41,832 bases of DNA, from positions 1-41,832 of IMG/VR virus record IMGVR_UViG_3300010373_000080. One strand, written 5' to 3'. The stretch comes from a virus. Shown here one piece after another: positions 9,493 through 37,237 of this stretch. The notes beneath the pieces are model-generated. The model did no database searches and had not been told where the DNA came from. It saw nothing but the letters and a program-made list of their open reading frames with translations. The stretch's first letter is position 1. Each line of letters begins with the position of its first letter. The translations under genes and the position numbers were made by a program.

Positions 9493-10182
9493 TTAGGATA
9501 GTCGCCTTAGCGCGATGTCATGATAACCCCAGCCGTCAAGGGCTAGATGCGACACCTTGAAATTCTCGGCGAATACAAACTCGTTTACGGCTTGCATGAC
9601 GCCGTATGGATCGCCCTCTAACGGAGACCACACCGCATAGTCATTGCAGACGATATACCCACCAACCTTTACCTTCTGCTTTGCCACTTCGAGATCCTTG
9701 CGGACGTGCTCATAAATATGGCTTGCATCAATGTAGATCCACTCGAAATGTTGGTCTGGGAATTTTGAAAGTTCTTCCCATGAATATCCGGTGATCGTCG
9801 TCAGTCTGCCTTCATTAATAAAGGGCTGCAGAAGATCAAAGCGAAAAGGCCCATAATCAACATCAATCGTACGGAGACTGATGCTGGGGAGAAGGTTCAA
9901 AATAAATTCAGCAAAAAGCCCCGCTTGCGTCCCGACTTCGATCACCTCGCCAGCGCTAGGCATTTGGCGGATGATGTCCTTGCGGTTGCTCAATACCTTG
10001 CAACCATCGAGTTTTTCTTGTGGGATTGTAACCCGAGTGCCAGAATGGCCCATAAGGTAATCAGGCGGAGTGCCATCGGCAGCGATCGAGGCAGCCACAT
10101 CCTCTCTCAGGGCCGCACGAAACGTAAGGTATGCGTCTCTCGCTTTCTCGCGAATGGCGCGATGATTTACCAGATCTGACAT
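9493..10182 (-). CDS. Class I SAM-dependent methyltransferase (Methyltransf_24 type)
   Basis: 229 residues. The SAM-binding motif I is IEVGTQAG (81-88), followed by acidic D107 (RTIDVDYG) at the end of strand beta-2. IDASH at 151-155 is typical of the Methyltransf_24 group, which often acts on sugars or small molecules in glycan loci. It is the last gene after tailspike and glycosyltransferase genes, suggesting modification of a surface glycan or a virion part rather than DNA, although a DNA target cannot be excluded. Its GAGAGG ribosome site lies inside the 3' arm of a strong hairpin at 10185-10240, suggesting translational control. Confidence 0.8.
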   Translation of the reverse strand: MSDLVNHRAIREKARDAYLTFRAALREDVAASIAADGTPPDYLMGHSGTRVTIPQEKLDGCKVLSNRKDIIRQMPSAGEVIEVGTQAGLFAEFILNLLPSISLRTIDVDYGPFRFDLLQPFINEGRLTTITGYSWEELSKFPDQHFEWIYIDASHIYEHVRKDLEVAKQKVKVGGYIVCNDYAVWSPLEGDPYGVMQAVNEFVFAENFKVSHLALDGWGYHDIALRRLS

Positions 10183-10290: not shown

Positions 10291-12432
10291 TTATTGAGCC
10301 TCGTATGATCCGGAGATGCTAATGAAAGCGCCAGCGCCACCCGGATATGTGCCGTCATAATTTGTTATAGCAGCAATATTTGTGCCGAATCCGATAACCC
10401 CAACAACAGTTTTTGACGTCGAAATGAATGCCGATCCTGATAGTTGCGTTTGGGCTAGTGATGTGAAGGGCAGCGTCAATTTAACCGATCCGGCACACGT
10501 ACCATTTGTGGTGATTGAGGCCTGAACATTCACAAAGACAGTTTTCCCGATGATTTGATATCGACCACTAACGCCAGAGGTTGTCGTGACGGTTCCGCTT
10601 CCACAGCTAAATGTTGGAGTGAAACCAGTCCATGGTTGGCCCGCTGTCGACCCCGTGTTACTAAAAATCGTGTTGGTTGACGAGATCGCGGTATCAGCCA
10701 CGATAGTATTCGCGGCGGTTACGGATGCCAGATTATTGCCATAAATCAGAGAATTTACGACATTGGCACCGATCGAAACACCTTGCACCCCAGTTTCAAG
10801 CGGGCCAATAACGGTGTTTCCAGTAATGATCGCGCCGGTATTGTCTGAAATAGTATTTTGCAGCCTTATAGCGGCAACCGTTGGCTGATCCGCAATCGCG
10901 CCCAAAACAACCTGATTCCCCTCAAGCAGAAAGGTGTACTGTGAACGAAGATTTGGCTGGCTATCCGTTCCCCCTGGGTATCCCCATCCGTGGGAGCCGA
11001 TAAAATGATTGTTGCCACCGCCGGCAGCATAGAAGTTTGCGACACGCGCATTGACAGCCGTAGCCCCGAACTGATTGTCAGTGCCGGTTATCCACATGTT
11101 ATAATCAGGTAGATCAGCGGTAGTGTTGTAAAGCGTATGGCCGGCGTCATTGACATTTTCGAGCCGGTTCGAATTGTCGATTGAGGTTTCGTAGCCCGAT
11201 TGCTGAAAGTAGTTTGCACCATTTCCAGCAGCGGCGTTTCGCAGTACAGAGTTGCGAAAAGTCAACCCAACCGTGTAGACATTGTAAACGGTATATCGCG
11301 AAATTCCCCATCCATCGATCCGGACATTTTCAAATGTAAGCTTGTATGCGCTCTTGGTCTGTGTACCGAATGCAGCGCCCTCGATATACATCGTTGCGTA
11401 GAGCACAGCACCGCTTGAACATCCTGGCAATGCTCGTATCGTGGCCCCGCCACCGGCAGGGCCGACGACCCTAAGGCTAGCCGTGCCGTTCGCAACCTTC
11501 TGAGGACGGAAACTATCCGCGCACACATTATAATAACCAGAGGGCGGAGGCGGCAGGTAAAGCAAGCCAGCATTTGGACCCGTCGAAGAAGATGCTGCGG
11601 CTGCCGCGGCATTCAGGGCGGCGCTGTCATCGCCACCCGTGCCGGCAGATGCATTGAAGTCCTGCGGGGTGATTGCATAGTTCTGCCAGCGTGTTGCGCC
11701 CGTAAGAGAAACCGCACCGGTTCCGGTTCGGGTGTAATTTGTCTGAGCATCATTGATGCTCTTATTGGTCAGCGTGTCGGTCGTATTCCGCCCAATAAGC
11801 GTATCCGTGGCGGCGGGAAGCGTAAGCGTGCCCGAGGCTGCGGCAGATGGCTGAATGATCGTCGCACCCGACGTTGACCCGTTTAGTGTAGCGCCACCGC
11901 CCACAACGGGCGCCGTCAGCGTTTTATTGATCAACGTCTGAGTGTCAGTGGTGCCGACGATCACGCCCGACGGGAGCACTTTTCCGCTATCAACAAGACT
12001 GGTGCCAGACGTGTTGCCGAAGGTGGCAATATGGCCGATGGTCGAAGAGTTAGGACCGACTATGGTTCCGGCTCCGATTGGACCAAAGGTCATGTTTCCC
12101 GCTTGGTAGTACAGGCCAGAAGATGTCAGCCAAATATCGCCGTTGTTTGGAACATTAGGAGCAGTCCCGGTCAGGATACTGAAGCCAGCGGTTGAAGCGG
12201 TAGATCCAGTTGTCTTCAGCCGCCCGAGCATGGTATCCCCGGCACGGTTTACCGGCGTGAACCCTAGCGTATCCTGTTTTTGCTGAAACCAATTGTTCCA
12301 CTGACCAACGGTCGGAACCATCCCATAGGTCATTGCCGGGTTTGATGGAGCGGACTGAGCAAAAACAGGTCCAGAAAAAAGCGCAACGATAAGGGTGGCA
12401 GCTATGCTGCAATAGATTTTGAAATTTTTCAC
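10291..12432 (-). CDS. Tailspike/pectate-lyase-like beta-helix protein with N-terminal signal peptide
   Basis: 713 residues from a GTG at 12432, chosen because GAGGA lies about eight bases upstream, inside the glycosyltransferase stop region. Residues 1-25 form a Sec signal peptide: basic KNFK, a hydrophobic core (SIAATLIVALFSG) and an AxA-type site (VFA-QS). The protein continues with a fibre-like region (about 40-240), then the start of a right-handed beta-helix (ITPQDFNASAGTGGDDSAAL, near 255) and a C-terminal beta domain. It probably binds or degrades host polysaccharide. A signal peptide is odd for a virion part assembled in the cytoplasm. Confidence 0.8.
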   Translation of the reverse strand: MKNFKIYCSIAATLIVALFSGPVFAQSAPSNPAMTYGMVPTVGQWNNWFQQKQDTLGFTPVNRAGDTMLGRLKTTGSTASTAGFSILTGTAPNVPNNGDIWLTSSGLYYQAGNMTFGPIGAGTIVGPNSSTIGHIATFGNTSGTSLVDSGKVLPSGVIVGTTDTQTLINKTLTAPVVGGGATLNGSTSGATIIQPSAAASGTLTLPAATDTLIGRNTTDTLTNKSINDAQTNYTRTGTGAVSLTGATRWQNYAITPQDFNASAGTGGDDSAALNAAAAAASSSTGPNAGLLYLPPPPSGYYNVCADSFRPQKVANGTASLRVVGPAGGGATIRALPGCSSGAVLYATMYIEGAAFGTQTKSAYKLTFENVRIDGWGISRYTVYNVYTVGLTFRNSVLRNAAAGNGANYFQQSGYETSIDNSNRLENVNDAGHTLYNTTADLPDYNMWITGTDNQFGATAVNARVANFYAAGGGNNHFIGSHGWGYPGGTDSQPNLRSQYTFLLEGNQVVLGAIADQPTVAAIRLQNTISDNTGAIITGNTVIGPLETGVQGVSIGANVVNSLIYGNNLASVTAANTIVADTAISSTNTIFSNTGSTAGQPWTGFTPTFSCGSGTVTTTSGVSGRYQIIGKTVFVNVQASITTNGTCAGSVKLTLPFTSLAQTQLSGSAFISTSKTVVGVIGFGTNIAAITNYDGTYPGGAGAFISISGSYEAQ

Positions 12433-12443
12433 GGATATGTTCC

Positions 12444-13502
12444 TCAGAGTCCTAGCAGGACTTTGTCCCATTGGGCCATGGATGCGGAGTTGTACCGCTC
12501 GATATTCGCCTGATTGCGCTTGACGAGCCGCTTGGACCAGAATCCGAGCGCCTTATAGATCTTCCTCTCGATATCTGGCCGAGAGTTCGGGCGAGCCGCA
12601 CAGCAGCTCACGAGCCATGGCACTTCCGCCGATCCGATCACCGGGACGCCGGCGAAGACCGCATCAGCCAGGACGATATTGAAGGTCTCGGACAAGCTTA
12701 CTTGCATGACGAGATCCATCGTTCCGACCAAGGCGCGGAAGTCCTCTGAATCCATCCAGTTATGCTCGACAAGCTCGATGTCATCGCCACCATTCTGGAA
12801 GATGCTGCGGAGGTTCTTCAGGATCGGGCCGCCGTTGCCCTCGACGCGGTTCCCGTTGATGTGGAAGCGTAGATGGACATCGTTATCTCGAGCGAACTGG
12901 ATGGCTGCCAGAGCCTGGATGACGACGTTCTTGAGCGGCCGAACCGCCCCGAAGCAGCCGACGTTCAGTTCGCCCAGATGCGCCCATCTACTGGGATGGA
13001 CGACTTTCTTGTCGTGGGAATAGTAGTTCGGCAGATAGCGGAGCCTGTCTGGAGATATCCCCATTGCTCGCGTATCGCCGAGCATCCGCATGGAATTTGG
13101 AGCGATCAGGACATTCGGAAAATCCGCATATTCCTTCATCCAGCCAAAGGCGATCCCTTCCGAGGACAGGAAAGGCGTCTCGCTGTGGTTCCGGACGATG
13201 AACCGTGTTTTCGGAAGCGCCTTGAGCAGATCGCCGAACTTGTACGGCGGGCACCAGAACGCTTCAATGATGCAGACATCGGCCTTGAACTTCACGCATT
13301 CCCGATGAATGTCATTGCCATCCCTCACATGCACGATATCAGAGGCATAGCCGAGACGCTTCAGCATCTCGCAGGCCATGTTAGCGGAATTGAACAGACC
13401 GCTGCACAGGGGCTTCCCTGAGCCGCTATAGGACCAATCCTTATCGCAGACGTCGTAAGGCTGCTCTCTGTACTTGAGAACGAAGAGAACGCGGGGTTTC
13501 AT
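12444..13502 (-). CDS. Glycosyltransferase, GT-B fold (GT4-like)
   Basis: 352 residues. The C-terminal half shows GT-B hallmarks: NVGCFGAVRPLKNV at the start of the second Rossmann domain and SLSETFNIVLADAVFAGVPV, the region that binds the sugar nucleotide, with acidic residues spaced as in family GT4. The N-terminus (PRVLFVLKYREQP) is the first Rossmann strand. It transfers a sugar from a nucleotide donor; the acceptor is unknown. Lying between fibre-assembly and tailspike genes, it may alter the host O-antigen or capsule, or glycosylate the fibre. The next gene starts 11 bases on, so the two are translated from one message. Confidence 0.82.
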   Translation of the reverse strand: MKPRVLFVLKYREQPYDVCDKDWSYSGSGKPLCSGLFNSANMACEMLKRLGYASDIVHVRDGNDIHRECVKFKADVCIIEAFWCPPYKFGDLLKALPKTRFIVRNHSETPFLSSEGIAFGWMKEYADFPNVLIAPNSMRMLGDTRAMGISPDRLRYLPNYYSHDKKVVHPSRWAHLGELNVGCFGAVRPLKNVVIQALAAIQFARDNDVHLRFHINGNRVEGNGGPILKNLRSIFQNGGDDIELVEHNWMDSEDFRALVGTMDLVMQVSLSETFNIVLADAVFAGVPVIGSAEVPWLVSCCAARPNSRPDIERKIYKALGFWSKRLVKRNQANIERYNSASMAQWDKVLLGL

Positions 13503-13511
13503 GGGAGTTCC

Positions 13512-14045
13512 TTACGAAACGGTGGGCCAGCTTGCGGCGTCGATTTCGGCCGTTGTAGTGATCGTGCCGGCGATGATCTGCTTGTCGACTTCGCCTTCGG
13601 CGGCAAAGCTCGCCTGGACGTGAGCGCCGACCGTATTGGCGATAGCCGTCATCTGTGCCGCCGTCAGCTCCACAAAGCCGGCTGACGTCTTGAACTTCAC
13701 CGTCACGTCTGGGTTCGCCTGAACATAGTTGTAGGCTCCCGTGATGAGCGCCTGACTTTGCCGATCAGTGGCGACCTTCGAACCATCAACCGTAATGCCG
13801 CCAGTCTCGACGGCGTATCGCTTTGTGGCGGCATAGGTGAGAAGATCATCCGATGTCACAGCCGGTGCAACTGGTGCACTAAACGTCTTGCCATCATATA
13901 TGAAGCCCTGCTCAACTGTGGATTTACAGGGTACGAACGTTTGAGCCACATCGGCATAAAAGCAATCCGTCAGTTCGACGCCATCGGGTATCGATACTAT
14001 TTCCACAACGACACCATCGGCGATACGAGCAAAATTCTGGGTCAT
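13512..14045 (-). CDS. DUF4376-like tail-fibre-associated protein
   Basis: 177 residues. The N-terminal part (ARIADGVVVEIVSIPDGVEL) followed by FIYDGKTFSAP is typical of fibre-assembly or fibre-tip proteins, and the C-terminal half with KRYAVETGGITVDG and ATDRQSQALI matches DUF4376. These proteins sit beside phage tail fibres and are thought to help their folding or form an accessory tip. The gene lies nine bases after the glycine-rich fibre gene, which supports a partner role. Confidence 0.72.
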   Translation of the reverse strand: MTQNFARIADGVVVEIVSIPDGVELTDCFYADVAQTFVPCKSTVEQGFIYDGKTFSAPVAPAVTSDDLLTYAATKRYAVETGGITVDGSKVATDRQSQALITGAYNYVQANPDVTVKFKTSAGFVELTAAQMTAIANTVGAHVQASFAAEGEVDKQIIAGTITTTAEIDAASWPTVS

Positions 14046-14054
14046 GATAAGCCC

Positions 14055-15116
14055 TTAGTATTGGAGGATCACTGTGCCGGCAGCGCCACTGCCACCGGCA
14101 GCGTTCGAGGCCCAAGTCGCATTGTAGACGGAGCCGCCGCCAGAGCCCGGTGCGCGCCCATTCTGGACTGAGGTACTGAAGGCCAAGGCTGATCGACCGC
14201 CGCCACCCTGAGAACTTGACCCGCCATTGCCCCCATAATAGGCAACGCCTATGCCCCCGGAACCATCCGTACCGTTGCCACCAGCCTGATTTATTTGGCC
14301 CCCAATACCTAGCCCACCCGTACCGCCGAACGTACCAGCGGTAGTAGCGCCGCCGCCACTGCCGCCCGGTGCCGACATGAATGCGCCAATACTGGAGGTC
14401 CCTCCAGTGCCACCGTTGGTGCCATAGCTTCCTGCCGAACTGGATGATGAGGCCGCACCGCCCGTACCTGCCGCCCCGACAATGATAGTAATAGTCTGGC
14501 CCGGCGTGACACTTATCCAGCCACTGGATGTTCCACCGGCAGCGCCACCGCCTGCTGGATATACGACGCCATTGCCGCCAACACCCATGCCGCCAGCACC
14601 GCCGCCCCCGCCAACACACGTGCAGTTAATTTGGTATGTATTGGCCGGAACGGTGAAAGTGTAAGTTCCCGCCGCAGCATAAGACGTAAGAGAGGTCGCC
14701 TTCGGCGTAATCAGAACCCAATTTGCGGGCGAAACACCATCTGGATTGGTGGTGTTATTATCAGCCGTACTCATCCATATGACGCCGGTTGCCGTAGCAC
14801 TTGCTAGGATCGCGCCCTGCGGATAGCCTCCGATAGAAGCTGAAAAGCCAGAATCATAGACAGCGAGACCGCCAGCGCTTTGCCATTGGTTCCATTGTGT
14901 GATCTGCTTCAGAATGCCGTTGAAATCCTGGCCCCATGGCGGCGTTCCGCCAGCCCCCACAGGGAGAAATGTCAATGGAGGAAAGCCATCCGTCAATGAG
15001 GCGGCGCCATTGGTGACGCCGATTTGAGAGGCTTGCGGGATCGTTCGGATATAGCCAACACCTGCAGAGTTCGCGAACGGAATCGCGAACTTGCTCGGGA
15101 TCTGAGAAGCCTGCAT
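14055..15116 (-). CDS. Tail fibre with glycine-rich distal domain
   Basis: 353 residues. The N-terminal ~160 residues look like a phage fibre attachment part (TPPWGQDFNGILKQITQWNQW, seen in many collar/fibre proteins; conserved W and Q). From about residue 170 a TFTVPANTYQINCTCVGGG start leads into a low-complexity domain rich in GG, GGG and SG runs up to the end, closing with GTVILQY. Glycine-rich tips such as the polyglycine sandwich of some phage adhesins bind host receptors. This is probably the receptor-binding fibre. The repetitive DNA makes it a likely recombination site. Confidence 0.78.
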   Translation of the reverse strand: MQASQIPSKFAIPFANSAGVGYIRTIPQASQIGVTNGAASLTDGFPPLTFLPVGAGGTPPWGQDFNGILKQITQWNQWQSAGGLAVYDSGFSASIGGYPQGAILASATATGVIWMSTADNNTTNPDGVSPANWVLITPKATSLTSYAAAGTYTFTVPANTYQINCTCVGGGGGAGGMGVGGNGVVYPAGGGAAGGTSSGWISVTPGQTITIIVGAAGTGGAASSSSSAGSYGTNGGTGGTSSIGAFMSAPGGSGGGATTAGTFGGTGGLGIGGQINQAGGNGTDGSGGIGVAYYGGNGGSSSQGGGGRSALAFSTSVQNGRAPGSGGGSVYNATWASNAAGGSGAAGTVILQY

Positions 15117-15126
15117 TTGATTTTTC

Positions 15127-15876
15127 CTAGATGATGACGACCGAAGCGGCCACGCCAGTCGATTTCGGGAGCACGCCAGATTGCTGGACGATTGCTAGCT
15201 CGACGGGGGAAAGCTGGAATGTGAAGGTGTAGGTCATGACCATGGTCTCGATCGTCTGACCATTGTAGAAAGATGCCTGATTGAAGCCGAAGGCATTCTG
15301 AGATTCTGCAAACCCGAACCAGCTCCCGCCCTGAAAGCCATCCGTGACATACGCATTCCCCCGATTGGGAAAGAGCGTCATCAGAATTCGATTGATGGCC
15401 GGGATCGAGCCGTCCGTGATGTTCGCTGCGGCCTTTGCAAAGATGAGCTGCCGATAGCTTTCATCCGAGAGGGCGTAGTTCTCTGTCAGGGTCGATCCGG
15501 AGTAGAACGGGCCTTGTCCGAACGTGTAAGAGCCTGGGAGAGCTTCGTTGAAGCCGAACCAGTTGCCAGTCTCGACCTGCAGGACGCGATTGACGCCTAC
15601 TATTCTTCCCCAGCAGTCTAGACCAACTCCTTGAGCAGTATCAATGTTCCAGATCGCGTCGAAAAAAGTGTCAAAGTTTTTCGTTTGATCAAGATATTCG
15701 AAGATATTCTCAATCAACTGGATCAGGATCGGCGAATTTGCGTACTGGCTCAGTACTGTCGACCAAATCGAAAATGGCGGGATCGTCCCGAGAGGACTGA
15801 CGCCGATTTGGAATAAGCCAAGACCATTGGACCCCGGTTGTGGACCAGACGGATAGATTGGGCCTGTATCGGTCAT
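15127..15876 (-). CDS. Baseplate protein, DUF2612 family
   Basis: 249 residues. Motifs typical of DUF2612 are visible: NIDTAQGVGLDCWGRIVGV near residue 80, ESYRQLIFAKAAANITDGSI and the duplicated WFGFNEALPGSYTFGQG / WFGFAESQNAFGFNQAS segments. Members lie after the J-like baseplate gene in contractile-tail phages and take the place of gpI-type wedge proteins that connect the baseplate to the fibres. The gene starts four bases after the J-like stop and precedes the fibre, matching that order. Confidence 0.85.
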   Translation of the reverse strand: MTDTGPIYPSGPQPGSNGLGLFQIGVSPLGTIPPFSIWSTVLSQYANSPILIQLIENIFEYLDQTKNFDTFFDAIWNIDTAQGVGLDCWGRIVGVNRVLQVETGNWFGFNEALPGSYTFGQGPFYSGSTLTENYALSDESYRQLIFAKAAANITDGSIPAINRILMTLFPNRGNAYVTDGFQGGSWFGFAESQNAFGFNQASFYNGQTIETMVMTYTFTFQLSPVELAIVQQSGVLPKSTGVAASVVII

Positions 15877-15879
15877 GGC

Positions 15880-17316
15880 TTAGCTCAGCGTGACGATGAT
15901 GTTATTGGCCGAGATGGTTGGCACCTGATTGATGTTGACCGGGATATCAAAGAGGCTGGCCACGACCGATTTCATGGATTCCGATCCTACGGTCTGGCTA
16001 TTGCTAACGATGTATGTCCCCGTGCCGCCAGACCCGGTTCCAAGGGCTGTGATCCTTGTCCCTATAACCAGATTGCCAGTCGTGTCGGTGATAGTCTGCC
16101 CAACTGCCAATGTACCCGAAGCAACCGCCGAAACGGTCAGGGTTGAGCCAGAAATGGACCCGGTGAAGGATGCAGCCGGACTATTGGTAGATCCGACCTC
16201 AATAGAGATGATCTGCGCCCATGCCCCGAGAGCGGCGACTGGGGCATAAAATCGGCTTGCATAGAGCGTCACGCCGATCTTGGCTCTAGGACCGCCATCC
16301 CCGCCGGCGAAGGCGCTTATGATCGCATTCTGGATCTGTGTGGCAGCATCGGCGGGAACAAGAGAGCTGTTCGTGATATTCACTGCGAACAGGATCGGCA
16401 GTGGATCAGGGATTTCGAATTGAACCGTATATGTCGGATAAGGCGGCACGTAGCCGGTGCTCGTGTCCTGCACTTGAACCGATGTATTCCCATTATATGC
16501 ACAGCCAGGAGCTTTCTTTGACCAGATTGCCCGAGCGACGGCGGATGCGTCACCACCGACGACGGCGACATAGAGAGAGTTCGGAGAAAGCGTGACGCCG
16601 CCGATTGTAACCGGGCTATTGGTATCGTTTTCCGTTACATACGCGTCGATCACATTCGAGACCGTGAGGACTGCGCCTTTGACCGAAGGAAGGGAACCGA
16701 TCGAATTCAGCGCGACTGAGGCAGCGCGTCGTGCCTCAAAGGCCTGACGGCTCTCGACATTATTGCCAAGCACGCCATCCGATGGGTTGTTGATCGAATC
16801 CCAGCCAGGAATGGACTGATAGATCTGGTTCAACGTATCGGCCGGGCAAGGAATAGGACCAGGCACCAGGCATTCGAACGTCAATGTGATATTGCCGGAA
16901 ACCGGGATAGTTCCGGCTTCCGTGCAGATGTATTGATTGCCATCCGAAGCAAGCGCCAAGGCCCCTTCCGGGATGACAACACCCTCAAGGCCAGTACATA
17001 CGGCTTGAACGACTGTCGGCTGCGATGGGTTGCGCTCGATGAAATAGATACGTGCAATGCCGTCCTGCATGCGTCCCGAGGCATAGGCCGGGTCGACTTG
17101 CTGGGTGTATTTCAAGAAGGTCTGATTGACCTCATCGATGACAGCCGTTTCGCTCGATGCGAGCTGACCTTGCGGCGTCGTCAGATCGATATTCAGATTC
17201 CCGCCGAAAGCAGAATTGATATCCTCCAAGACGCCGGCAAGGACGGTTTCTGCCGAGGGTATAATAAACCCTGCATCCGTCCACGTCGGGGACGGGACGT
17301 TGGTTGTAACAGCCAT
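15880..17316 (-). CDS. Baseplate J-like wedge protein
   Basis: 478 residues. The N-terminus ([19 protein letters not shown]) and the central part ([20 protein letters not shown]) are typical of baseplate J/gp47-like proteins, which form the wedge ring of contractile tails. Near the C-terminus, residues 383-450, one copy of a beta-rich module is inserted ([16 protein letters not shown]...[13 protein letters not shown]). The same module occurs in the sheath, neck and cement proteins of this phage. Order gp25-like, J-like, DUF2612 supports the assignment. Confidence 0.9.
15967..16170 (-). repeat. Beta-rich module, single copy in the J-like protein
   Basis: Encodes residues 383-450 of the J-like protein with the pattern G-S-x-L-T-V-S-A-V, [17 protein letters not shown]. 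It is shared with three other virion proteins of this window. Confidence 0.7.
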
Positions 17317-17327
17317 TTATGGAACCC

Positions 17328-17681
17328 TTAGAAGGATGCGGCGGAAACCGTGCCGTCTTCAGCAGTTATCTGCACTTGACCAGTGACCACGCGATTATCC
17401 CAGGACGTGATGAAACATTGCGATGTCGCCACACCGGGAACGGTAAGGGCCGCCTCATTGAAATAGGCTTTCATCAGCGAGATCGGCGGTGCATAGCCGA
17501 GGATTTGCGAGAAGTAAGGAATACCAATCGAGGTATTGTAGAATACTTCGCCAGCGAATGTTCTGATCGCGCTCGCCGCGTCTTGCGCAAGCGCATAGGG
17601 TTCGCTGGCCACGGCGATATTGCCTGCGGTATCGACGGCCAAATCCCATGTGGCCGTGTCGAGCAAGAGCGTCGAAGACAT
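17328..17681 (-). CDS. Baseplate wedge protein, gp25-like
   Basis: 117 residues. The pattern WDLAVDTAGNIAVA, ALAQDAASAIRTFAGEVFYN and then GIPYFSQILGY matches short gp25/W-like wedge proteins of myoviruses, which contribute to sheath-baseplate contact. Only one base separates its start from the spike gene's stop, and the J-like gene follows after 11 bases, the expected baseplate order. Confidence 0.82.
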   Translation of the reverse strand: MSSTLLLDTATWDLAVDTAGNIAVASEPYALAQDAASAIRTFAGEVFYNTSIGIPYFSQILGYAPPISLMKAYFNEAALTVPGVATSQCFITSWDNRVVTGQVQITAEDGTVSAASF

Positions 17682-17682
17682 A

Positions 17683-18342
17683 TCATGTTCCTGGATTTGG
17701 CGGCGCTTCTGGACCCGGCGGGGTGGTTGGGTGCGTATGGTTCTGCAGGGTCACCGCATCGCCAGTACCGAAGCCGGCCGTGATGCCGCCTGTTACCGTC
17801 AAGTTTCCGGTCATTGCGATCGATCCGAGTTTGGTCTCGATGACATTGCCGTTCTTATCGGCCATCGTGATTCCGTCATCACGAAAATGGATGTATTGGT
17901 CTGGCGTATCCTGATTGAACAAGTTTCCGTGGTAGACACCGTCTGCCAAGTCATGCATGCGAAACGAGCCGGGGTTTGACTGCACCCCTTTGTTCGCCTT
18001 CAACGATGACATATCGCGGTCACCAATCGACATGTGGCCTAGGTCGTTGACCTTGGGATCATTGATGATCGTATTGCCACCGCCTTGGCTTCGGGAAACC
18101 GGGATGCCGTAAATGATCCCGTGCGGGGTTTGGTTACCCTGACCATCGATTTGATTGATGAGCGGCTGGACATCCACAGTCGGCGCCGGCCCTACCCCGC
18201 CACCATGCACTGCGATAATCTTGACCGGGACTAGCGTGCGGACTTCGCCCAGCTTCTGCCTGATATGGAAATCAAGGACATTATAGTCCGAGGAGTCGTC
18301 AAACGTGCCCTGCTGGCCAAAGAACTTCTCTGGAGCGGCCAT
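17683..18342 (-). CDS. Baseplate spike, Gp138 family
   Basis: 219 residues. The N-terminal ~110 residues match the Gp138 N-terminal domain (KIIAVHGGGVGPAPTVDVQP, an OB-fold), followed by a beta-structured needle region (KLGSIAMTGNLTVTGG). The C-terminus LQNHTHPTTPPGP contains an HxH pair like the metal-binding tip of membrane-puncturing spikes. It would cap the tail tube and pierce the outer membrane. It lies directly after the hub gene. Confidence 0.88.
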   Translation of the reverse strand: MAAPEKFFGQQGTFDDSSDYNVLDFHIRQKLGEVRTLVPVKIIAVHGGGVGPAPTVDVQPLINQIDGQGNQTPHGIIYGIPVSRSQGGGNTIINDPKVNDLGHMSIGDRDMSSLKANKGVQSNPGSFRMHDLADGVYHGNLFNQDTPDQYIHFRDDGITMADKNGNVIETKLGSIAMTGNLTVTGGITAGFGTGDAVTLQNHTHPTTPPGPEAPPNPGT

Positions 18343-18343
18343 G

Positions 18344-19204
18344 TTACTGAGTTCCCGTCGCGATCAGTTCGAGGACTTGGAACCACTTGCCCCCAGGGGT
18401 TTGGGATTCCAGTTCGTAAAAGATGCTTTTGACTTGCCATTTGCCATTTGCTGGCGTGAGATCGCTTTTGACCTCGACCAAGGAGAGCTGCTTGACAGCC
18501 GGATTAAACAGGCACCGCACTATGACGATGTTCTGATTGAACATCGGATAGCCGACTAGTCCGGTATCTGGGGAGATCAGGATAGCATCTCCCTGCCGCG
18601 GCTGACCGCGCGGGGAGATAACCATCTTGCTCGGCTCGTAGATCAGATCGATATTGCCATGGCGCGCGATTGCCATAGCCTGGGTCCACGCCGTACCCCC
18701 GAAATACGGGTTTGAGAGCTTGACGTTGACGCCGTTGTTTTCGAAGGCAAAACCCATCTGCTTCGCCAGGTTGCCCATCATGCCCGCCGCATCGGCCGAT
18801 CCCTTGATGCTGAGCGCCGGGACAGGCTTCACTGCTTGGAATGGACCGGGTGACGCTTCCACACGAAATGCCTCCTGAGGCATGCTCTGAGCATCGACGA
18901 AGGCCGAGAAGATCGTCCCGCCAAAGACGAGCGTCATACCCGTTTCATCATCCCCAGCCTCAACCGAGATGCTATTGAAGTAGCGAGCATTGGCCTGTGT
19001 GCCGACCGTAGAAAGCTGGTTCATCAAAGATAGAGGCAGACCATAGACCGCCAGGCGCATGGTATTACTGGACACGCCGCCGGTAGCGTCAATATTAGCC
19101 GAAGCCCTTAATCCGGTCACCGTGGCTGTGTTATTTTTGCCACTTCCAAAACTTCCGTTTGCCAAATTGAACTGGATCGTCAGTTTTTTCTCGGTAAATG
19201 ACAT
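18344..19204 (-). CDS. Baseplate hub protein
   Basis: 286 residues. The N-terminus reads as a beta-rich hub segment (KKLTIQFNLANGSFG, then MRLAVYGLPLSLMNQLS) and the C-terminus WQVKSIFYELESQTPGG resembles gp27/gp44-like hub folds of simplified contractile tails. It lies between the plug and spike genes, which is the position of the hub in such phages. The family is judged mainly from order and general pattern, so the call is firm as baseplate and less firm as hub. Confidence 0.75.
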   Translation of the reverse strand: MSFTEKKLTIQFNLANGSFGSGKNNTATVTGLRASANIDATGGVSSNTMRLAVYGLPLSLMNQLSTVGTQANARYFNSISVEAGDDETGMTLVFGGTIFSAFVDAQSMPQEAFRVEASPGPFQAVKPVPALSIKGSADAAGMMGNLAKQMGFAFENNGVNVKLSNPYFGGTAWTQAMAIARHGNIDLIYEPSKMVISPRGQPRQGDAILISPDTGLVGYPMFNQNIVIVRCLFNPAVKQLSLVEVKSDLTPANGKWQVKSIFYELESQTPGGKWFQVLELIATGTQ

Positions 19205-19259
19205 TTGGATGAATATCCCGCATCTTGCCTAGAGCGCGATGTGAGCGCATGTTTCTGTT

Positions 19260-19634
19260 ATGTTCATCGCGCCCCTGCTCATCGCCATCGTTCTCGTCAT
19301 CGCGTTTCCGCGTCTGATGAGATTCATTCTAAGTCTGTTGGCTTTCGGGGTGCTCTTTGTCGTGGCATCGTGCATTGACCACGCTAGAGCCGAAGGACTT
19401 TCAACGCGGGACGCGATGCGCAGATGTCTCGCAGTATACGCGCAGACCAATGCAAGCGATCTTCTCGCCATGAAGGCGTTCGGATCCGATCCATCACTCC
19501 CTCTGGCGCACGCGTGCGGCGGGTATGCTGAAACCTACATCACCCTGTGCCAACAGCGAGGTAATCCCGCTATAGAATGCTTGGATGATGTTCGCAAAGA
19601 TGCTGAGCAAGCGATTGCCCGACAGATCAATTAG
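19260..19634 (+). CDS. Plus-strand membrane/periplasmic moron protein
   Basis: 124 residues. Two hydrophobic stretches lie at the start (FIAPLLIAIVLVIAFP and FILSLLAFGVLFVVASC); the second could also end as a signal peptide (HARA-EG) if translation begins at Met20. The remaining ~80 residues carry four cysteines (RRC, HAC, TLC, IEC), a pattern suited to periplasmic disulfides. It fits exactly between two minus-strand baseplate genes and overlaps one by four bases. No family is recognised. As plus-strand cargo in a late operon it could act in the lysogen, for example in superinfection exclusion; that is inference. Confidence 0.7.
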   Translation: MFIAPLLIAIVLVIAFPRLMRFILSLLAFGVLFVVASCIDHARAEGLSTRDAMRRCLAVYAQTNASDLLAMKAFGSDPSLPLAHACGGYAETYITLCQQRGNPAIECLDDVRKDAEQAIARQIN

Positions 19635-19936
19635 GCTGACAGTTCTTCCGGCGTGAGGTAGGTCAGAAAATACCGAATTCCTAACCCGGTATAATCAGGG
19701 TCATTGCTGCCGTGGGTGTCAATGAAAGAGAAATCTCCTGAATAGCCTAGATAGGCCGACCGGATAATTCGGTTCTGGTTCTCGCAGATCACGCCACCGA
19801 TGATGAGGGTATTCTCCAGATAGATGTCAATGAACAGGCCGTTATAGGTCTGATAGATATTCAATTGCGTCACCTGACTGTTTAAGGTCGTGGTGACGGT
19901 TTGGTTCGGAATGGCCTGCAGGGGAACGATCAACAT
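19631..19936 (-). CDS. Baseplate plug protein, Pam3 gp18-like
   Basis: 101 residues. The sequence starts LIVPLQAIPNQTVTTTLNSQ and continues NIYQTYNGLFIDIYLENTLI, GGVICENQNRIIRS and FIDTHGSNDPDYTGLG, a pattern I know from the Pam3 plug gp18 domain family of small contractile-tail phages. The plug closes the baseplate below the tube. Its place between the upstream tail gene and the hub matches that gene order. Confidence 0.82.
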   Translation of the reverse strand: MLIVPLQAIPNQTVTTTLNSQVTQLNIYQTYNGLFIDIYLENTLIIGGVICENQNRIIRSAYLGYSGDFSFIDTHGSNDPDYTGLGIRYFLTYLTPEELSA

Positions 19937-32456: not shown

Positions 32457-34250
32457 TTAGAGCGTCTTGACGATGTGCGACTTCGCTTCCGGGTAGAGTT
32501 CGTGGAAGGACGAAACCCCCTTGGCATCCATGGCGACCTTATTGGTGCGCTGCTGCTGTTGGGCATTGCTGCCCGGTACCGGCTGCGTCTTCAGAATTGC
32601 CCAGAAGGCAGACGGGTGAACGCCGGCGACATCGATGTTGAGACCGTCCAAGGCAACCTTATAGACATCGGCCGCGCTGTCGCAGGCCATCGGGACCTTG
32701 CCGATATAAGGACGAACGTTTTCCTTGGCTGCCTCGATTTCACGAGCAACCTTGCGCTCATTGGCGACGGCTGCCTTGATCGCAGCATCCATAGCCTTCT
32801 TGTCGACCATGTCCTTCTTTTCGTCCTTGTCCTCGTCTTCGGCCTTCTTGTCGTCTTCCTCTTCGGATTCGTCCTCGGCCTTCTTTTCCTTGTCGTCGTC
32901 CTCGTCCATGGCTTCCTGATCGTCTTCCATGTCCTGGTCTTCTGCCTTTGCTTTCGGCATGTCTTCGTCGAGCGCAAGGATGGACTTGATCACATCCTCG
33001 ATCTTGGCGTCCTGGGCAAGATTGCCCTCAAGTGCCTTGGTGAGCGCGGCCGTCCTGGCTTTGCTCTGTGCAATCTTATTAGCCATTCCGGCCTCCTGTT
33101 GTGGTTGAAGTTTCTCGTCGCCAACGACGACATCGCTTCCGGCCCTACCTTCGACTACGAGGGCCAAGTGATTTCCGCCGATGTTTCTCATGACGCCATC
33201 GTATCGCTGTCCATTGGCGATACCTGGGGTCATGTCCGCCTCATACCGATAGCCGCAGGACAGTTCCTTCTGCTTCTCGGTCTCGATCAGATCTATGGCT
33301 TCCCCATCCCAGATACTGAGAGGAGCCATGAGATACGGTGTTTTGAACTCGACATTGCTGCCGATTGCACCCACGACGATCTCTCTGGGGTGTTCATCCG
33401 CACTGACTGGCTTATGAATGATGAGGATCGGCTTGCCGGCAAAGGATGGGGCAGCCTTGGCCAACTCATCCGGGTCGCGGTACATCTGGTAAATTCGCTC
33501 GGGATCAAGACCAAGCCCCGCGGCATTCGGGATCTCCCGACCATAGTAGGGATTGACCACAGCCTTTGAGATCGGCGTCTCTTCCACGAAGAGGTGGCCA
33601 TCGGCATCGATACGACGAACGCTGCGGTCCATCGCAATCGCGTCCATCGCTCCCATCTCTTGGCCTTCCTGTTCATTAACCCATCTGACGAAGCCGACGC
33701 GAAACATTGCCCAATCTTCGGGTGTCAGTTCACCATAGATGCCAAGTCGGTTGCATAATGTGTCCATCACAGCCGGATGCATCGGCCCAGGCAGCATATT
33801 CAGCGGACACCATGCATATCCGGCGTGTTCATCGTTCAACTGCGGCACGAACTTCGAAGGCACCGACTGAGCGAAGGTATGAAATGCCATGCCTGTTGGC
33901 GTCACCCGGCTGTCGAGCAGCTTCATTGCCGTCGCGCTCTCGGGGATAAGCATCCCCATCTCTTCATGAGCTTCGCGATCAGCGGTCTGTTCGGGCGTCT
34001 CGCCTTCCTCGCCCTTGCCGCCCGGTAGAGCCCAATGGCCGGCATAGTTGGCTTCGGTCGAGGACCGACGAAGAAGCAGAACATCACCGTCCGGTGCGAC
34101 ATACAGCGTGCCAGCGGCGTGGCCATTAACGACATCTGCGGCGATAAACTCTTCGCCTACAGCTTTGGGAATACCCAAGGTGCTATGGCCGCGAGCTGCA
34201 GCCTCCATCGCACGCCTTTGCTTTTCACTGACCGGTGGCAACGTCGTCAT
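32457..34250 (-). CDS. Nudix hydrolase - DUF2213 prohead protease - scaffold fusion
   Basis: 597 residues from the ATG at 34250 (MTTLPPVSEKQRRAM, a common start for this family). Residues 78-100 form a perfect Nudix box, G-x5-E-x7-RE-x2-EE-x-G (GGKGEEGETPEQ through EEMGM). A DUF2213 phage-protease part follows at about 180-380 (SFAGKPILIIHKPVSADEHP and GCIA-type elements such as LSCGYRYEADMTPG). Residues 428-478 are an acidic run, then a helical C-terminus typical of scaffold. The Nudix domain would cleave a nucleoside diphosphate-linked substrate. The domain fusion is unusual. Confidence 0.85.
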   Translation of the reverse strand: MTTLPPVSEKQRRAMEAAARGHSTLGIPKAVGEEFIAADVVNGHAAGTLYVAPDGDVLLLRRSSTEANYAGHWALPGGKGEEGETPEQTADREAHEEMGMLIPESATAMKLLDSRVTPTGMAFHTFAQSVPSKFVPQLNDEHAGYAWCPLNMLPGPMHPAVMDTLCNRLGIYGELTPEDWAMFRVGFVRWVNEQEGQEMGAMDAIAMDRSVRRIDADGHLFVEETPISKAVVNPYYGREIPNAAGLGLDPERIYQMYRDPDELAKAAPSFAGKPILIIHKPVSADEHPREIVVGAIGSNVEFKTPYLMAPLSIWDGEAIDLIETEKQKELSCGYRYEADMTPGIANGQRYDGVMRNIGGNHLALVVEGRAGSDVVVGDEKLQPQQEAGMANKIAQSKARTAALTKALEGNLAQDAKIEDVIKSILALDEDMPKAKAEDQDMEDDQEAMDEDDDKEKKAEDESEEEDDKKAEDEDKDEKKDMVDKKAMDAAIKAAVANERKVAREIEAAKENVRPYIGKVPMACDSAADVYKVALDGLNIDVAGVHPSAFWAILKTQPVPGSNAQQQQRTNKVAMDAKGVSSFHELYPEAKSHIVKTL

Positions 34251-34476
34251 TCCCCTTGATACCGATCCAGTCACCGCCGCGGCCCGGGTTATCCCCAACG
34301 ACTATCAACCGAGGATCCGAACCGATCTCTTTCGCGAGAGTATCGTACTGTTCATCAATCGTGGCACCGGCAATCAGATATCCCATGTTCGTGAAGCCGT
34401 GCAGGATCATACCAAGCGTGCGAGGACCATGACGCGCAATCAGTTCATGCGCGAAGTCTTGAAGATGCGAAGGCAT
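34225..34476 (-). CDS. Small hypothetical protein upstream of the protease
   Basis: 83 residues. AGGAA lies about six bases before the ATG, and the gene overlaps the start of the protease by 26 bases. The sequence is helical with HLQDFAHELIARHG, a Gly/His-rich middle and a C-terminal VGDNPGRGGDWIGIKG loop. I do not recognise it. Reading of the late operon continues through it, and the plus-strand XRE promoter lies just upstream on the opposite strand. Confidence 0.65.
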   Translation of the reverse strand: MPSHLQDFAHELIARHGPRTLGMILHGFTNMGYLIAGATIDEQYDTLAKEIGSDPRLIVVGDNPGRGGDWIGIKGNDDVATGQ

Positions 34477-34507
34477 TCGTATTCCTCGCTACGATGTGCA
34501 GAATAAA

Positions 34508-34556
34508 CGGTTCAATATTGTACCGCCCCCAATAGGGATGGTATATATTGAAACCG
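34508..34556 (+). promoter_or_regulatory. Palindromic operator/promoter of the XRE island
   Basis: An imperfect inverted repeat (CGGTTCAATATTGTACC at 34508-34524 with GGTATATATTGAAACCG at 34540-34556; arms differ by one indel each) covers a TTGTAC (-35-like, 34518-34523) and a TATATA (-10-like, 34542-34547) spaced 18 bases. A start near 34554-34556 would leave almost no leader before the ATG at 34559. It fits an autoregulated repressor promoter. Confidence 0.6.
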
Positions 34557-34558
34557 TG

Positions 34559-34747
34559 ATGACCTCAGATGATCTCAAAGAATGGCGCAAGCGCCTGAAC
34601 TTATCCCTGGACAAAGCAGCCAAAGAGCTTGGCTGCTCCAAAGGTACTCTCATCGCCTATGAACGAGGGAGAAAGATCCCTCATTATTTCGCGCTTGCCT
34701 GCGCGGCCTACGCTTTGGGCGTCAAAGCTATAGGATCATACAAATGA
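34559..34747 (+). CDS. XRE-family transcriptional regulator
   Basis: 62 residues from the ATG at 34559. LKEWRKRLNLSLDKAAKELG, then CSKGTLIAYERGRKIP is a complete XRE-type helix-turn-helix; no further domain is present. The upstream inverted repeat overlaps the predicted promoter, so the protein probably controls its own operon. It is encoded on the plus strand in the middle of the minus-strand morphogenesis genes. Lack of a usual ribosome site suggests a leaderless message, as for lambda cI from PRM. Which genes it represses beyond its own is unknown. Confidence 0.82.
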   Translation: MTSDDLKEWRKRLNLSLDKAAKELGCSKGTLIAYERGRKIPHYFALACAAYALGVKAIGSYK

Positions 34748-35055
34748 CCAATCCCGGATCGTTAGTCGGCATGTTCTTTCTGCGCGACAACGGCGATACT
34801 TACCTAACCGGCGAAATCGTCGGGCAAGTTGGCAAGAACGCGTATCTTCTCAAGCCAGACAACATGAACTCATTGCCTGCAGAGCCGCCCCATGAATTGA
34901 TGGGCCTTGGGGACATGACCCGGATGAACGATTACGGCGCTCCCATAATGTCGCTGTTCCCCACCAGGGAGAACCTGTCCTCTTGGCTTGACTGGGTTGA
35001 GAGACCAGATATCGATCCGACCGGCGCCAAAATCATCAACCTCGTGAAGAAGTGA
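34744..35055 (+). CDS. Hypothetical protein, XRE island gene 2
   Basis: 103 residues. The ATG overlaps the regulator stop (ATGA). The sequence begins with a beta-rich part (SLVGMFFLRDNGDTYLTGEI) and has a C-terminal LSSWLDWVERPDIDPTG. No family is recognised. It is co-transcribed with the regulator by its overlap. Confidence 0.65.
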   Translation: MTNPGSLVGMFFLRDNGDTYLTGEIVGQVGKNAYLLKPDNMNSLPAEPPHELMGLGDMTRMNDYGAPIMSLFPTRENLSSWLDWVERPDIDPTGAKIINLVKK

Positions 35056-35062
35056 GATCAGC

Positions 35063-35347
35063 ATGATCAGCATCGAAGTCCCTAACCCCACCAACGGAGC
35101 CGCCTATCAGGTTCTGTTCGAGGCCGTTCAACCAGCATTCTGCACCACACGCGACAGGCAGGCCGAGATCAAAGCTGATTTCGATAAGGTCACCGAATGG
35201 GCCAAGACACAGCCGCCAGAAGTCTACGGCGCTTATCTCTGGGCCATCAAAGAGATTTCCAAGAGTATTGACCAGCGCATGGCTGCCAATGATCTGGGTA
35301 ATCAGGTTATTGCGGCGTACCAGTCAATTCCGAAGCCGGAGGTTTGA
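35063..35347 (+). CDS. Hypothetical protein, XRE island gene 3
   Basis: 94 residues. It starts eight bases after the previous stop with GAGATC in front. A helical, alpha-type protein (QAEIKADFDKVTEWAKTQPP, YGAYLWAIKEISKSIDQRM) with no motif I recognise. Its place between two tightly coupled genes supports it as real. Confidence 0.65.
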   Translation: MISIEVPNPTNGAAYQVLFEAVQPAFCTTRDRQAEIKADFDKVTEWAKTQPPEVYGAYLWAIKEISKSIDQRMAANDLGNQVIAAYQSIPKPEV

Positions 35348-35351
35348 AGAA

Positions 35352-35630
35352 ATGACCGACACTTCGCCGCAATATCTATTCGAGACCATCTTCCAAGAGC
35401 GGATCGCGCATCACCGCGCTCGCGCCGAATATCACAGGTCTGCCGGCCATTCCGAATTATGGGCGCTTCGCAGTGAAGCGAAGGCCGCGAAGTGGGAGGC
35501 CAAGATGAAAGAACATGTCATGTCCCGTAGAGAGGAAATTCTAGTCGATCTCTTCGCCCCCGGCATTCGATCATCTATTACCGATGACTTCCTCAATGGG
35601 AACGGCGGCAGCAACCGAGGGCTACTCTAA
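35352..35630 (+). CDS. Hypothetical helical protein, XRE island gene 4
   Basis: 92 residues from the ATG at 35352, which has TTTGAAGAA in front. The sequence is highly helical and charged (FQERIAHHRARAEYHRSAGH, SEAKAAKWEAKMKEHV) and ends in a short Gly-rich tail. No family is recognised. The stop shares a base with the next start. Confidence 0.62.
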   Translation: MTDTSPQYLFETIFQERIAHHRARAEYHRSAGHSELWALRSEAKAAKWEAKMKEHVMSRREEILVDLFAPGIRSSITDDFLNGNGGSNRGLL

Positions 35631-35815
35631 TGCTAGAAATCACTCCGATATCCACTTCACTAAAAGTCGGAGACATCATCACCATGGACGTTGTCATCGA
35701 CCGGCGTAACTGGTGGCAGCGTCATGCTCCAATGTGGCTCGGCGGCCAAGCACAGCCCACCCTCAAGCGTCAAACGTTCACAGTTACCCACCAAACTACT
35801 GGAGTATGGGAATGA
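35630..35815 (+). CDS. Hypothetical protein, XRE island gene 5
   Basis: 61 residues, beta-rich (ISTSLKVGDIITMDVVIDRR) followed by a basic, Trp-containing stretch (NWWQRHAPMWLGG). The ATG overlaps the stop of gene 4 (TAATG), and its own stop overlaps gene 6. I see no domain I can name. Confidence 0.62.
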   Translation: MLEITPISTSLKVGDIITMDVVIDRRNWWQRHAPMWLGGQAQPTLKRQTFTVTHQTTGVWE

Positions 35816-36126
35816 CCAAAGTCCCACTCCCCCTCGTGACTATCGATGTTTCAAAGCTCCGGTTTGATCCGGACCTCCCGACTGCAGAAGAATCCTTCCA
35901 CGAAATGCAACGTCAGCTCTACAGAATATCGCAAATAGCCTTAAGCGACCCATGGTTGCGCGACCAACTCGCCAAACTTGCCGAACTCGATGACCGCATA
36001 GCCCTCGGAGATATCGGCCTGATGGCGGAGCACAACGCTACGCTAATCGCCGTCTTTCGTCATATCGCTCCGACTGAAGAGTGGACGGCGGATTATCTCG
36101 CCATCCTTGAAAGGGAATCCCAATGA
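35812..36126 (+). CDS. Hypothetical protein, XRE island gene 6
   Basis: 104 residues from the ATG that overlaps the previous stop (ATGA). It is mainly helical (SFHEMQRQLYRISQIALSDP, LRDQLAKLAELDDRIAL). Upstream frames in this strand remain open but lack a ribosome site. No family is recognised. Confidence 0.62.
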   Translation: MTKVPLPLVTIDVSKLRFDPDLPTAEESFHEMQRQLYRISQIALSDPWLRDQLAKLAELDDRIALGDIGLMAEHNATLIAVFRHIAPTEEWTADYLAILERESQ

Positions 36127-36326
36127 CCGTAGCCGAACTCCGCAAGGCGCTCGAAGGACTGCCGGATGACGCTCCGGTAGTTTACGAATACGACGGCGGC
36201 ATCCTATTCTACGCTGATGAAATCCGCATTTCCAAATGTTCGCCCGATCCTCATCACGTCAGGGCCATATACGGGGATGCGGCCTATGACAGCGAGACAG
36301 GCGTAGCCCACTTGGTAATCAGCTAA
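36123..36326 (+). CDS. Hypothetical protein, XRE island gene 7
   Basis: 67 residues. MTVAELRKALEGLPDDAPVV, then an acidic beta part, is like the many short phage proteins beginning MTV(A/K)EL; no function is established for them. It overlaps the previous gene as ATGA and, at its 3' end, overlaps the convergent head gene by eight bases, which ends the island. Confidence 0.68.
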   Translation: MTVAELRKALEGLPDDAPVVYEYDGGILFYADEIRISKCSPDPHHVRAIYGDAAYDSETGVAHLVIS

Positions 36327-37131
36327 ACCCCTTAATGACCGGCCGGCCGACACATTTGCACCCCGGCTCTTCCGCTGGCTGAATGTAGCGACCAACCGCC
36401 GGATCATACCAACCCTGCGAGATCTTGTAGCGAGCCTTCCTCCGACCAGCCTCTACATGGGTTGGCCGGGGCTCTTTCGAGCCGTGACTGTGATGCCACT
36501 CAGCCTCGTCTAAGCCGAGTTCCAGCTCTCGCGCCCGCTTAAAGGCTGCTGTGGCCTTGTTGTTCTGATCTCTGGCGATAAAGGCCGCACGACGCCGTGT
36601 CACACCGTAGTGCTTCTGTAGATCTTCCGTCAGCGATCCTAGATCACGCCCGGCTTGTACCGATCGCATCACAGAGCCCTCGACGTCAGCGAGGTACTTT
36701 TGCGGGATGCTCTTGATCAAGGCCACATTGGCGTGGACGGTTGCGTCCGCGATATCCTTCATGGCTGGCGTCATCACAAAGCGGACAGTCCACCCACCGT
36801 CCTTCAAAATCTTCTTCATCGCCGCTGTAGACCGCTTCTCCACCGATTGGGTGAAGTATTCGGCCAACTTGCCCGACATCTGATCGAACCTGTCCAGCCA
36901 GCGCTTAGACAACTCTTTCATGGACCGCCGCAGCGCATCGGCCGGGCTTTCGTCCTCGGCGACAATGCGGTCTTCGTTCCGGCGATACGTGGCCTTGAGC
37001 AAGTAATCTACCGAGGCAGCCATTTCCTTTATCAGGGCATCAATCCGGCGCTGATAATCAGCTGTGATCCCGGCGTTTGGATGTATCGGCCTTAGAACGG
37101 TTTCTGCGGCCTTTGGCGTCTTCCGCCTCAT
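36319..37131 (-). CDS. Phage Mu F-like head morphogenesis protein
   Basis: 270 residues from the ATG at 37131. The C-terminal half has the Mu F-like signature RRRAAFIARDQNNKATAAF, then LDEAEWHHSHGSKEPRPTHV and a terminal GCKCVGRPVIKG with a Cys pair. The first half is a helical domain. Such minor head proteins attach to the portal and are injected or assist head assembly. Its place after the portal is standard. The upstream small gene overlaps its start. Confidence 0.85.
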   Translation of the reverse strand: MRRKTPKAAETVLRPIHPNAGITADYQRRIDALIKEMAASVDYLLKATYRRNEDRIVAEDESPADALRRSMKELSKRWLDRFDQMSGKLAEYFTQSVEKRSTAAMKKILKDGGWTVRFVMTPAMKDIADATVHANVALIKSIPQKYLADVEGSVMRSVQAGRDLGSLTEDLQKHYGVTRRRAAFIARDQNNKATAAFKRARELELGLDEAEWHHSHGSKEPRPTHVEAGRRKARYKISQGWYDPAVGRYIQPAEEPGCKCVGRPVIKGFS

Positions 37132-37237
37132 CCTGCTTGCCAACGGGCTTCTCCGGCTTCTCTAGGCTCTCTGGTAGCTCACCACGCGGTTTGGGCTCGC
37201 GAGAATTGATGACGCCCCATAGGGGAATATTGATCAC
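37058..37237 (-). CDS. Small hypothetical protein overlapping the Mu F-like gene
   Basis: 59 residues from a GTG at 37237, with AAAGG seven bases upstream. It starts INIPLWGVINSREPKPRGEL and becomes a charged Lys/Glu/Arg-rich, Pro-containing tail that is probably disordered. The last 74 bases share DNA with the Mu F-like gene in another frame. No family is recognised. Confidence 0.45.
   Translation of the reverse strand: MINIPLWGVINSREPKPRGELPESLEKPEKPVGKQDEAEDAKGRRNRSKADTSKRRDHS

Follow-up and report, generated by a model that had tools for sequence, protein, structure and literature searches.

An antisense seven-gene cassette between the MuF head gene and the protease gene of a phage, compared with the same gap in related phages

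Described systems and the MuF-protease locus

Morons, antisense morons and phage cargo hotspots are already known. Tab of Pseudomonas phage JBD26 lies antisense within the late operon and has a promoter of its own. Expression of Tab from the prophage protects the cell by blocking the assembly of incoming phages (PMC10884400). The ant moron of phage P22 is the classical example of a regulatory block that changes fast at a fixed place of a late operon (PMC2629481).

We analyzed a 41,832-bp IMG/VR record, hereafter the window. Seven small genes on the plus strand (g1 to g7, 34559–36326) form an island in this DNA, and all neighbouring head genes are on the opposite strand. Like the Tab/anti-Tab locus, the island consists of small genes opposite the late operon in the packaging or head region, varies among related phages and would have its own promoter (PMC10884400). 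Tab is a single gene; it lies between the two terminase genes, its antidote is on the sense strand and its defence function has been tested (PMC10884400), whereas the window has seven genes, including an XRE regulator, between MuF and the protease gene. The adjacent 83-aa sense gene of the window is also retained by phages without the cassette.

The P22 immunity I region is likewise a fast-changing block at one place in the late operon that includes small DNA-binding regulators (PMC2629481). P22 has Arc and Mnt, of the ribbon-helix-helix type, and an antirepressor, adjoining the tailspike gene (PMC2629481). In the window, an XRE regulator is present instead and an antirepressor is not recognizable. 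The P2/P4 hotspots are similar in that cargo is swapped at a fixed place within a phage family, but they hold tested anti-phage systems near cos (PMC9122126), whereas the site in the window is the MuF-protease gap and holds no known defence gene. In the available part of the account of Pseudomonas Mu-like phages, accessory genes are found at fixed places between conserved genes, head genes included; that part mentions no antisense set headed by an XRE gene at a site flanked by the F-like and protease genes (PMC4378225). Within the limited set of open literature, we found no description of an antisense hotspot in the MuF-protease gap or of a cassette framed by XRE and g7 genes.

The same part of that account states that moron composition is usually unlike that of adjacent genes, which is not a requirement (PMC4378225). 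The cassette does not differ in this way. Its GC content is 53.7% versus 55.3% for the window, third positions are similar, and there is no compositional contrast with the phage.

Layout and coding capacity of the cassette

The coordinates of the cassette and its flanks are listed in Table 1.

Table 1. Positions of the cassette genes, the upstream inverted repeat and the flanking genes in the window.
Feature	Position	Strand	Description
NUDIX-DUF2213 protease gene	32457-34208	-	flank, beyond the 83-aa gene
83-aa late-direction gene	34225-34476	-	retained in relatives without the cassette
Whole insert	34477-36318		1,842 bp, between the 83-aa gene start and the MuF stop codon
Inverted repeat, left arm	34508-34525		near-palindrome CGGTTCAATATTGTACCG; contains -35-like TTGTAC (34518-34523)
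Inverted repeat, right arm	34540-34556		GGTATATATTGAAACCG; contains -10-like TATATA/TATATT (34542-34549), 9-11 nt 5' of ATG
g1	34559-34747	+	62 aa, mini-XRE regulator
g2	34744-35055	+	103 aa, gene finder; without family match
g3	35063-35347	+	94 aa, homolog in the L128 sense-strand array, same gap
g4	35352-35630	+	92 aa, gene finder
g5	35630-35815	+	61 aa, gene finder
g6	35812-36126	+	104 aa, 81% identical homolog in the L176 cassette
g7	36123-36326	+	67 aa, MTV-ELRK-LEG protein; closes the cassettes of the window, L171, L176, L111 and L026
Phage_Mu_F head gene (MuF)	36319-37143	-	35.0 bits, cut-off 29.6

The original prediction of a seven-gene plus-strand island opposing the head genes was borne out by the open reading frames and by a gene finder whose codon-usage model was derived from the whole window and which picked all seven island genes and no minus-strand gene there. 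Five overlapping junctions had been claimed; we counted four, namely ATGA overlaps at g1/g2, g5/g6 and g6/g7 and a TAATG junction at g4/g5. The g2/g3 and g3/g4 gaps are 7 nt and 4 nt respectively, and g7 overlaps the 3' end of MuF by 8 bp (36319–36326). The codon usage score of g1 was marginal (0.5, with an upstream start), which we counted against the best explanation given below.

Pairs of homologs were used to examine codon positions. Between g6 of the window and its homolog in phage L176, there are 8, 11 and 36 substitutions at codon positions 1, 2 and 3 (36 of 55 at the third), with a dN of 0.105 and a dS of 0.65. This third-position bias, with dN well below dS, indicates that g6 is a protein gene under selection. 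The g7 pair and the g1 pair have a similar bias, with dS saturated in both. Judged from these substitution patterns, g1, g6 and g7 are protein genes on the plus strand. For these three, spurious antisense frames were ruled out by the homologs with third-position bias in the plus frames. For the island as a whole, chance open frames opposite an unrecognized minus-strand gene are hardly credible: many frames are open in the window DNA, but the gene finder preferred the plus strand and the stretch is missing from relatives.

The first gene had been taken for a small XRE regulator. In agreement, g1 matched HTH_31 (37.1 bits) and HTH_3 (34.9 bits) above the curated cut-offs, with an HTH_31/HTH_3 E of 4e-9, and it has homologs in phage L171 (71% over 55 aa) and L176. 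Of 298 genomes from the family to which Mesorhizobium belongs, 24 have a member of the mini-XRE family. When g1 relatives elsewhere in phages were compared with other small genes of the same loci, both large neighbours were on the opposite strand in 13/19 (L171 and L176 included) versus 15/59 cases (p = 0.002), which suggests that the mini-XRE regulator tends towards islands facing the surrounding operon.

The other six genes were said to match no recognized family. This held for g2 to g6, for which Pfam, PHROGs, PADLOC and NCBIfam returned nothing convincing, whereas g7 had a weak N-terminal match to DUF6225 below the cut-off. Profile and structure searches of the six proteins had been proposed; the profile part gave that g7 match, but the predicted structures were too poor for use (pLDDT 65 for g6 and 56 for g2), and neither a PDB fold search with g6 nor a comparison of g2 with solved structures gave a match. 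Across 50,697 phage records, 72,556 plasmids and 397 genomes from the order to which Mesorhizobium belongs, no homolog of g2 to g7 was convincing; the empty result for the genomes is weak evidence, as that search lacked a positive control. A match of g2 in Sinorhizobium was weak (E 0.03) and had unnamed genes as neighbours, and a 20-aa stretch of g5 resembles a tape-measure motif of L021.

Several other features of the window were recorded. The DUF2213 head protease has an N-terminal NUDIX hydrolase domain, as it does in several relatives. A TnpB-type gene (OrfB_IS605 and Cas12f1-like TNB; 6650–7735, plus strand) lies inside the minus-strand lysis/tail region, and no TnpA was seen adjoining it. 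A RhuM-family gene (8186–9328, minus strand) and a methyltransferase gene (9493–10182, minus strand) are found among tail and lysis genes and may mark a second cargo zone.

The MuF-protease gap among related phages

The distance from the MuF stop to the start of the 83-aa gene is 16–17 bp in L005 and L095 versus 1,842 bp in the window. In L002 and L003, different small genes occupy the site on the sense strand. The island had been described as an acquired cargo cassette next to MuF, and a comparison of presence and absence between the same two genes had been suggested. Both fared well: the cassette is absent in four close relatives, the site being empty in L005 and L095 and filled with other cargo in L002 and L003, and more distant phages have other forms of it; cargo unlike that of the window is also present in L171. 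Location of these genes in the early region of close relatives would have spoken against the original interpretation and was not observed. We also considered displaced early genes and rejected them, as no second copy was present in the window or in the records of close relatives that we examined.

Two further phages carry the same layout. L171, found by a g1 search, has a MuF 68% and a portal 59% identical to those of the window. Antisense in its MuF-protease gap are an XRE gene, a pair of small genes unrelated to those of the window and a g7 homolog that overlaps the end of MuF by 8 bp. L176, found by a g7 search, is far more distant (MuF 24%, portal 28% and terminase 47% identical). Its gap contains, again antisense, an XRE gene, a g6 homolog 81% identical to that of the window, an 80-aa gene and a g7 homolog. 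Three phages thus share the gap, the orientation and the layout, with a mini-XRE gene first, variable small genes in the middle and g7 last. The searches used g1 or g7 only; the gap, the orientation and the kind of first and last gene were not search criteria. The antisense sets of L111 and L026 also end with a g7 homolog, and the 8-bp overlap of g7 with MuF is common to the window, L171 and L111.

Relatives of g1, g6 and g7 were therefore found antisense in the gap, and the g3 relative is found there in sense orientation (L128, 14463–14780). With g6 81% identical while MuF and portal are 24–28% identical, the cassette genes move between phages. In L176, 16 nt located 3' of g7 are identical to the MuF end of L005, half of them being the last codons of g7 itself (E 0.15). 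This match hints at a MuF 3' end scar left by transfer from a window-type phage and is too short to claim.

To quantify antisense cargo at this site, we compared junctions in 134 non-redundant MuF loci, counting antisense genes totalling at least 150 bp; of 571 MuF relatives, 80 were among the matches listed. Antisense genes were present in 17/118 MuF-protease gaps versus 4/351 other head junctions. Without the window and L171, the counts were 15/116 versus 4/351 (p = 6e-7). With a 250-bp threshold and two Mesorhizobium loci merged, they were 11/115 versus 3/351 (p = 3e-5), and for gaps >400 bp only, p was 4e-4; these p-values are approximate, because the loci share ancestry. Antisense genes in relatives were called by a simple gene finder of our own and individual calls may be in error; the same caller was used at all junctions.

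The cargo of the gap is diverse. Cargo in Mesorhizobium includes a HigB toxin (E 1e-16), which is paired with an HTH protein, and a membrane protein of the Transgly_assoc family. In Acinetobacter, an antisense Arc repressor lies beside a P22_AR_N antirepressor, and AntA is found elsewhere. The Acinetobacter prophage L088 (4040–5488) has a set resembling P22 immunity I, with an antisense Arc, an RHH protein and a P22_AR_N antirepressor. Further cargo includes ProQ, a pentapeptide-repeat protein and an ISL3 transposase. The phage family is widespread, with relatives in Mesorhizobium, Bradyrhizobium, Methylobacterium, Achromobacter, Acinetobacter and others, and the gap contents change fast among them. 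By these genome comparisons, the MuF-protease gap is a recurrent antisense cargo hotspot, and the island of the window is an inserted, recurrent, exchanged and protein-coding antisense cassette in it. Since relatives have different cargo at the same spot, the island looks like an add-on package for the dormant state.

The cassette could instead be silent mosaic cargo, that is, early-type small genes carried by recombination with little or no expression in the lysogen. The fast turnover of the gap contents is consistent with this, as is the fact that other phages have g7 and mini-XRE types in their early regions or at unrelated places; hits of the g7 motif (L178–L188) are mostly at early or unrelated loci. 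We regard silent cargo as unlikely, since g6 has a dN well below its dS, the first and last genes and the palindrome core are conserved, and the orientation is non-random.

Other inserts were seen around MuF. L128 has more than 20 small sense-strand genes after MuF (10792–19800, plus strand), including the g3 homolog, in a greatly expanded MuF-protease gap. L126 (12746–17548, plus strand) and L114 (12971–15211, plus strand) have unannotated frames of 1600 aa and 746 aa respectively after MuF, perhaps structural or decoration genes. L006 (175–1968), and also L007, has an intein-like insert near the MuF C-terminus (Intein_splicing 26.7 bits, below the cut-off), with the MuF tail resuming at 1927–1965.

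Expression and possible role of the cassette

The inverted repeat lies directly 5' of g1. As single-strand DNA, it folds with a z of -4.0, and 1/200 dinucleotide shuffles was equally good. Tests of the palindrome alone were modest, with 72/2000 equally good shuffles for the window, 14/2000 for L171 and 146/2000 for L176. L171 retains the core CGGTnCAATATTGnAC and has the -10-like hexamer at the same position. The original prediction placed the promoter of the island within an inverted repeat. Palindromic sequence does lie over the putative promoter, but the hexamers are weak and a consensus scan calls no promoter. As the -10-like hexamer is 9–11 nt from the ATG, an mRNA starting there would be nearly leaderless. 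Overall, the partly conserved inverted repeat probably overlaps a near-leaderless promoter of g1. A minus-strand promoter for the 83-aa gene in the palindrome (TACAAT) was considered and rejected for want of an acceptable -35, and an Rfam search of the window gave no match.

No terminator was seen between g7 and MuF, which overlap, and weak terminator-like sites are present inside MuF only. The RNA of the cassette might then continue into MuF and portal and act as an antisense regulator that damps late expression, the proteins being secondary. The 8-bp overlap in the window, L171 and L111 would fit such a role, but the cassette genes show selection at the protein level and relatives function although their site is empty or its cargo lies on the sense strand. 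We consider this reading very unlikely.

The probable explanation, in our view, is that the island is an antisense moron operon: exchangeable, autoregulated from its own promoter, expressed in the lysogen and transcribed against the late genes. By binding the inverted repeat that covers its promoter, the XRE protein g1 would keep expression of the operon low and self-limiting in the lysogen. The mRNA would begin at the first ATG or within a few bases of it. During lytic growth, transcription of the late genes would pass through the cassette in the antisense direction and counteract its expression. We infer autoregulation by g1 and activity in the lysogen from the orientation of the cassette, from the repeat covering its start and from Tab as a precedent.

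In the lysogen, the products of such a moron operon would serve the prophage or the host, and control of superinfection or immunity is their most likely role, as other phages of the family keep a toxin-antitoxin pair, Arc with antirepressors and ProQ in the gap. A special case of the moron operon is a superinfection-immunity or anti-phage defence cassette, in which at least one of g2 to g6 blocks incoming phages and g1 keeps the level tolerable. The placement follows a logic like that of Tab (PMC10884400), and toxin-antitoxin and P22-type antirepressor sets are found in the same gap of other phages. However, PADLOC defence models matched nothing in the cassette beyond generic HTH components for g1. 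Toxin families had no match among g2 to g7, and P22_AR_N, AntA and BRO antirepressor domains had none among g1 to g7. The cassette thus has no recognized antirepressor of the P22 immunity I kind, toxin of a type II toxin-antitoxin system or known defence or immunity gene. We regard a defence cassette as possible, though clearly less probable than the moron operon in general.

More tentatively still, cassettes framed by mini-XRE and g7 may form a distinct class of horizontally exchanged prophage operon, in which the middle genes are interchangeable effectors and represent a new kind of superinfection control or defence; the gap may be a general antisense site where such effectors can be collected. 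If the moron-operon explanation is right, the MuF-protease gap would be a cargo address that can be read across the genomes of a widespread phage family, and the antisense strand would flag cargo intended for the lysogen. It would also give a simple handle on new prophage effectors, together with a defined seven-gene cassette and two natural variants.
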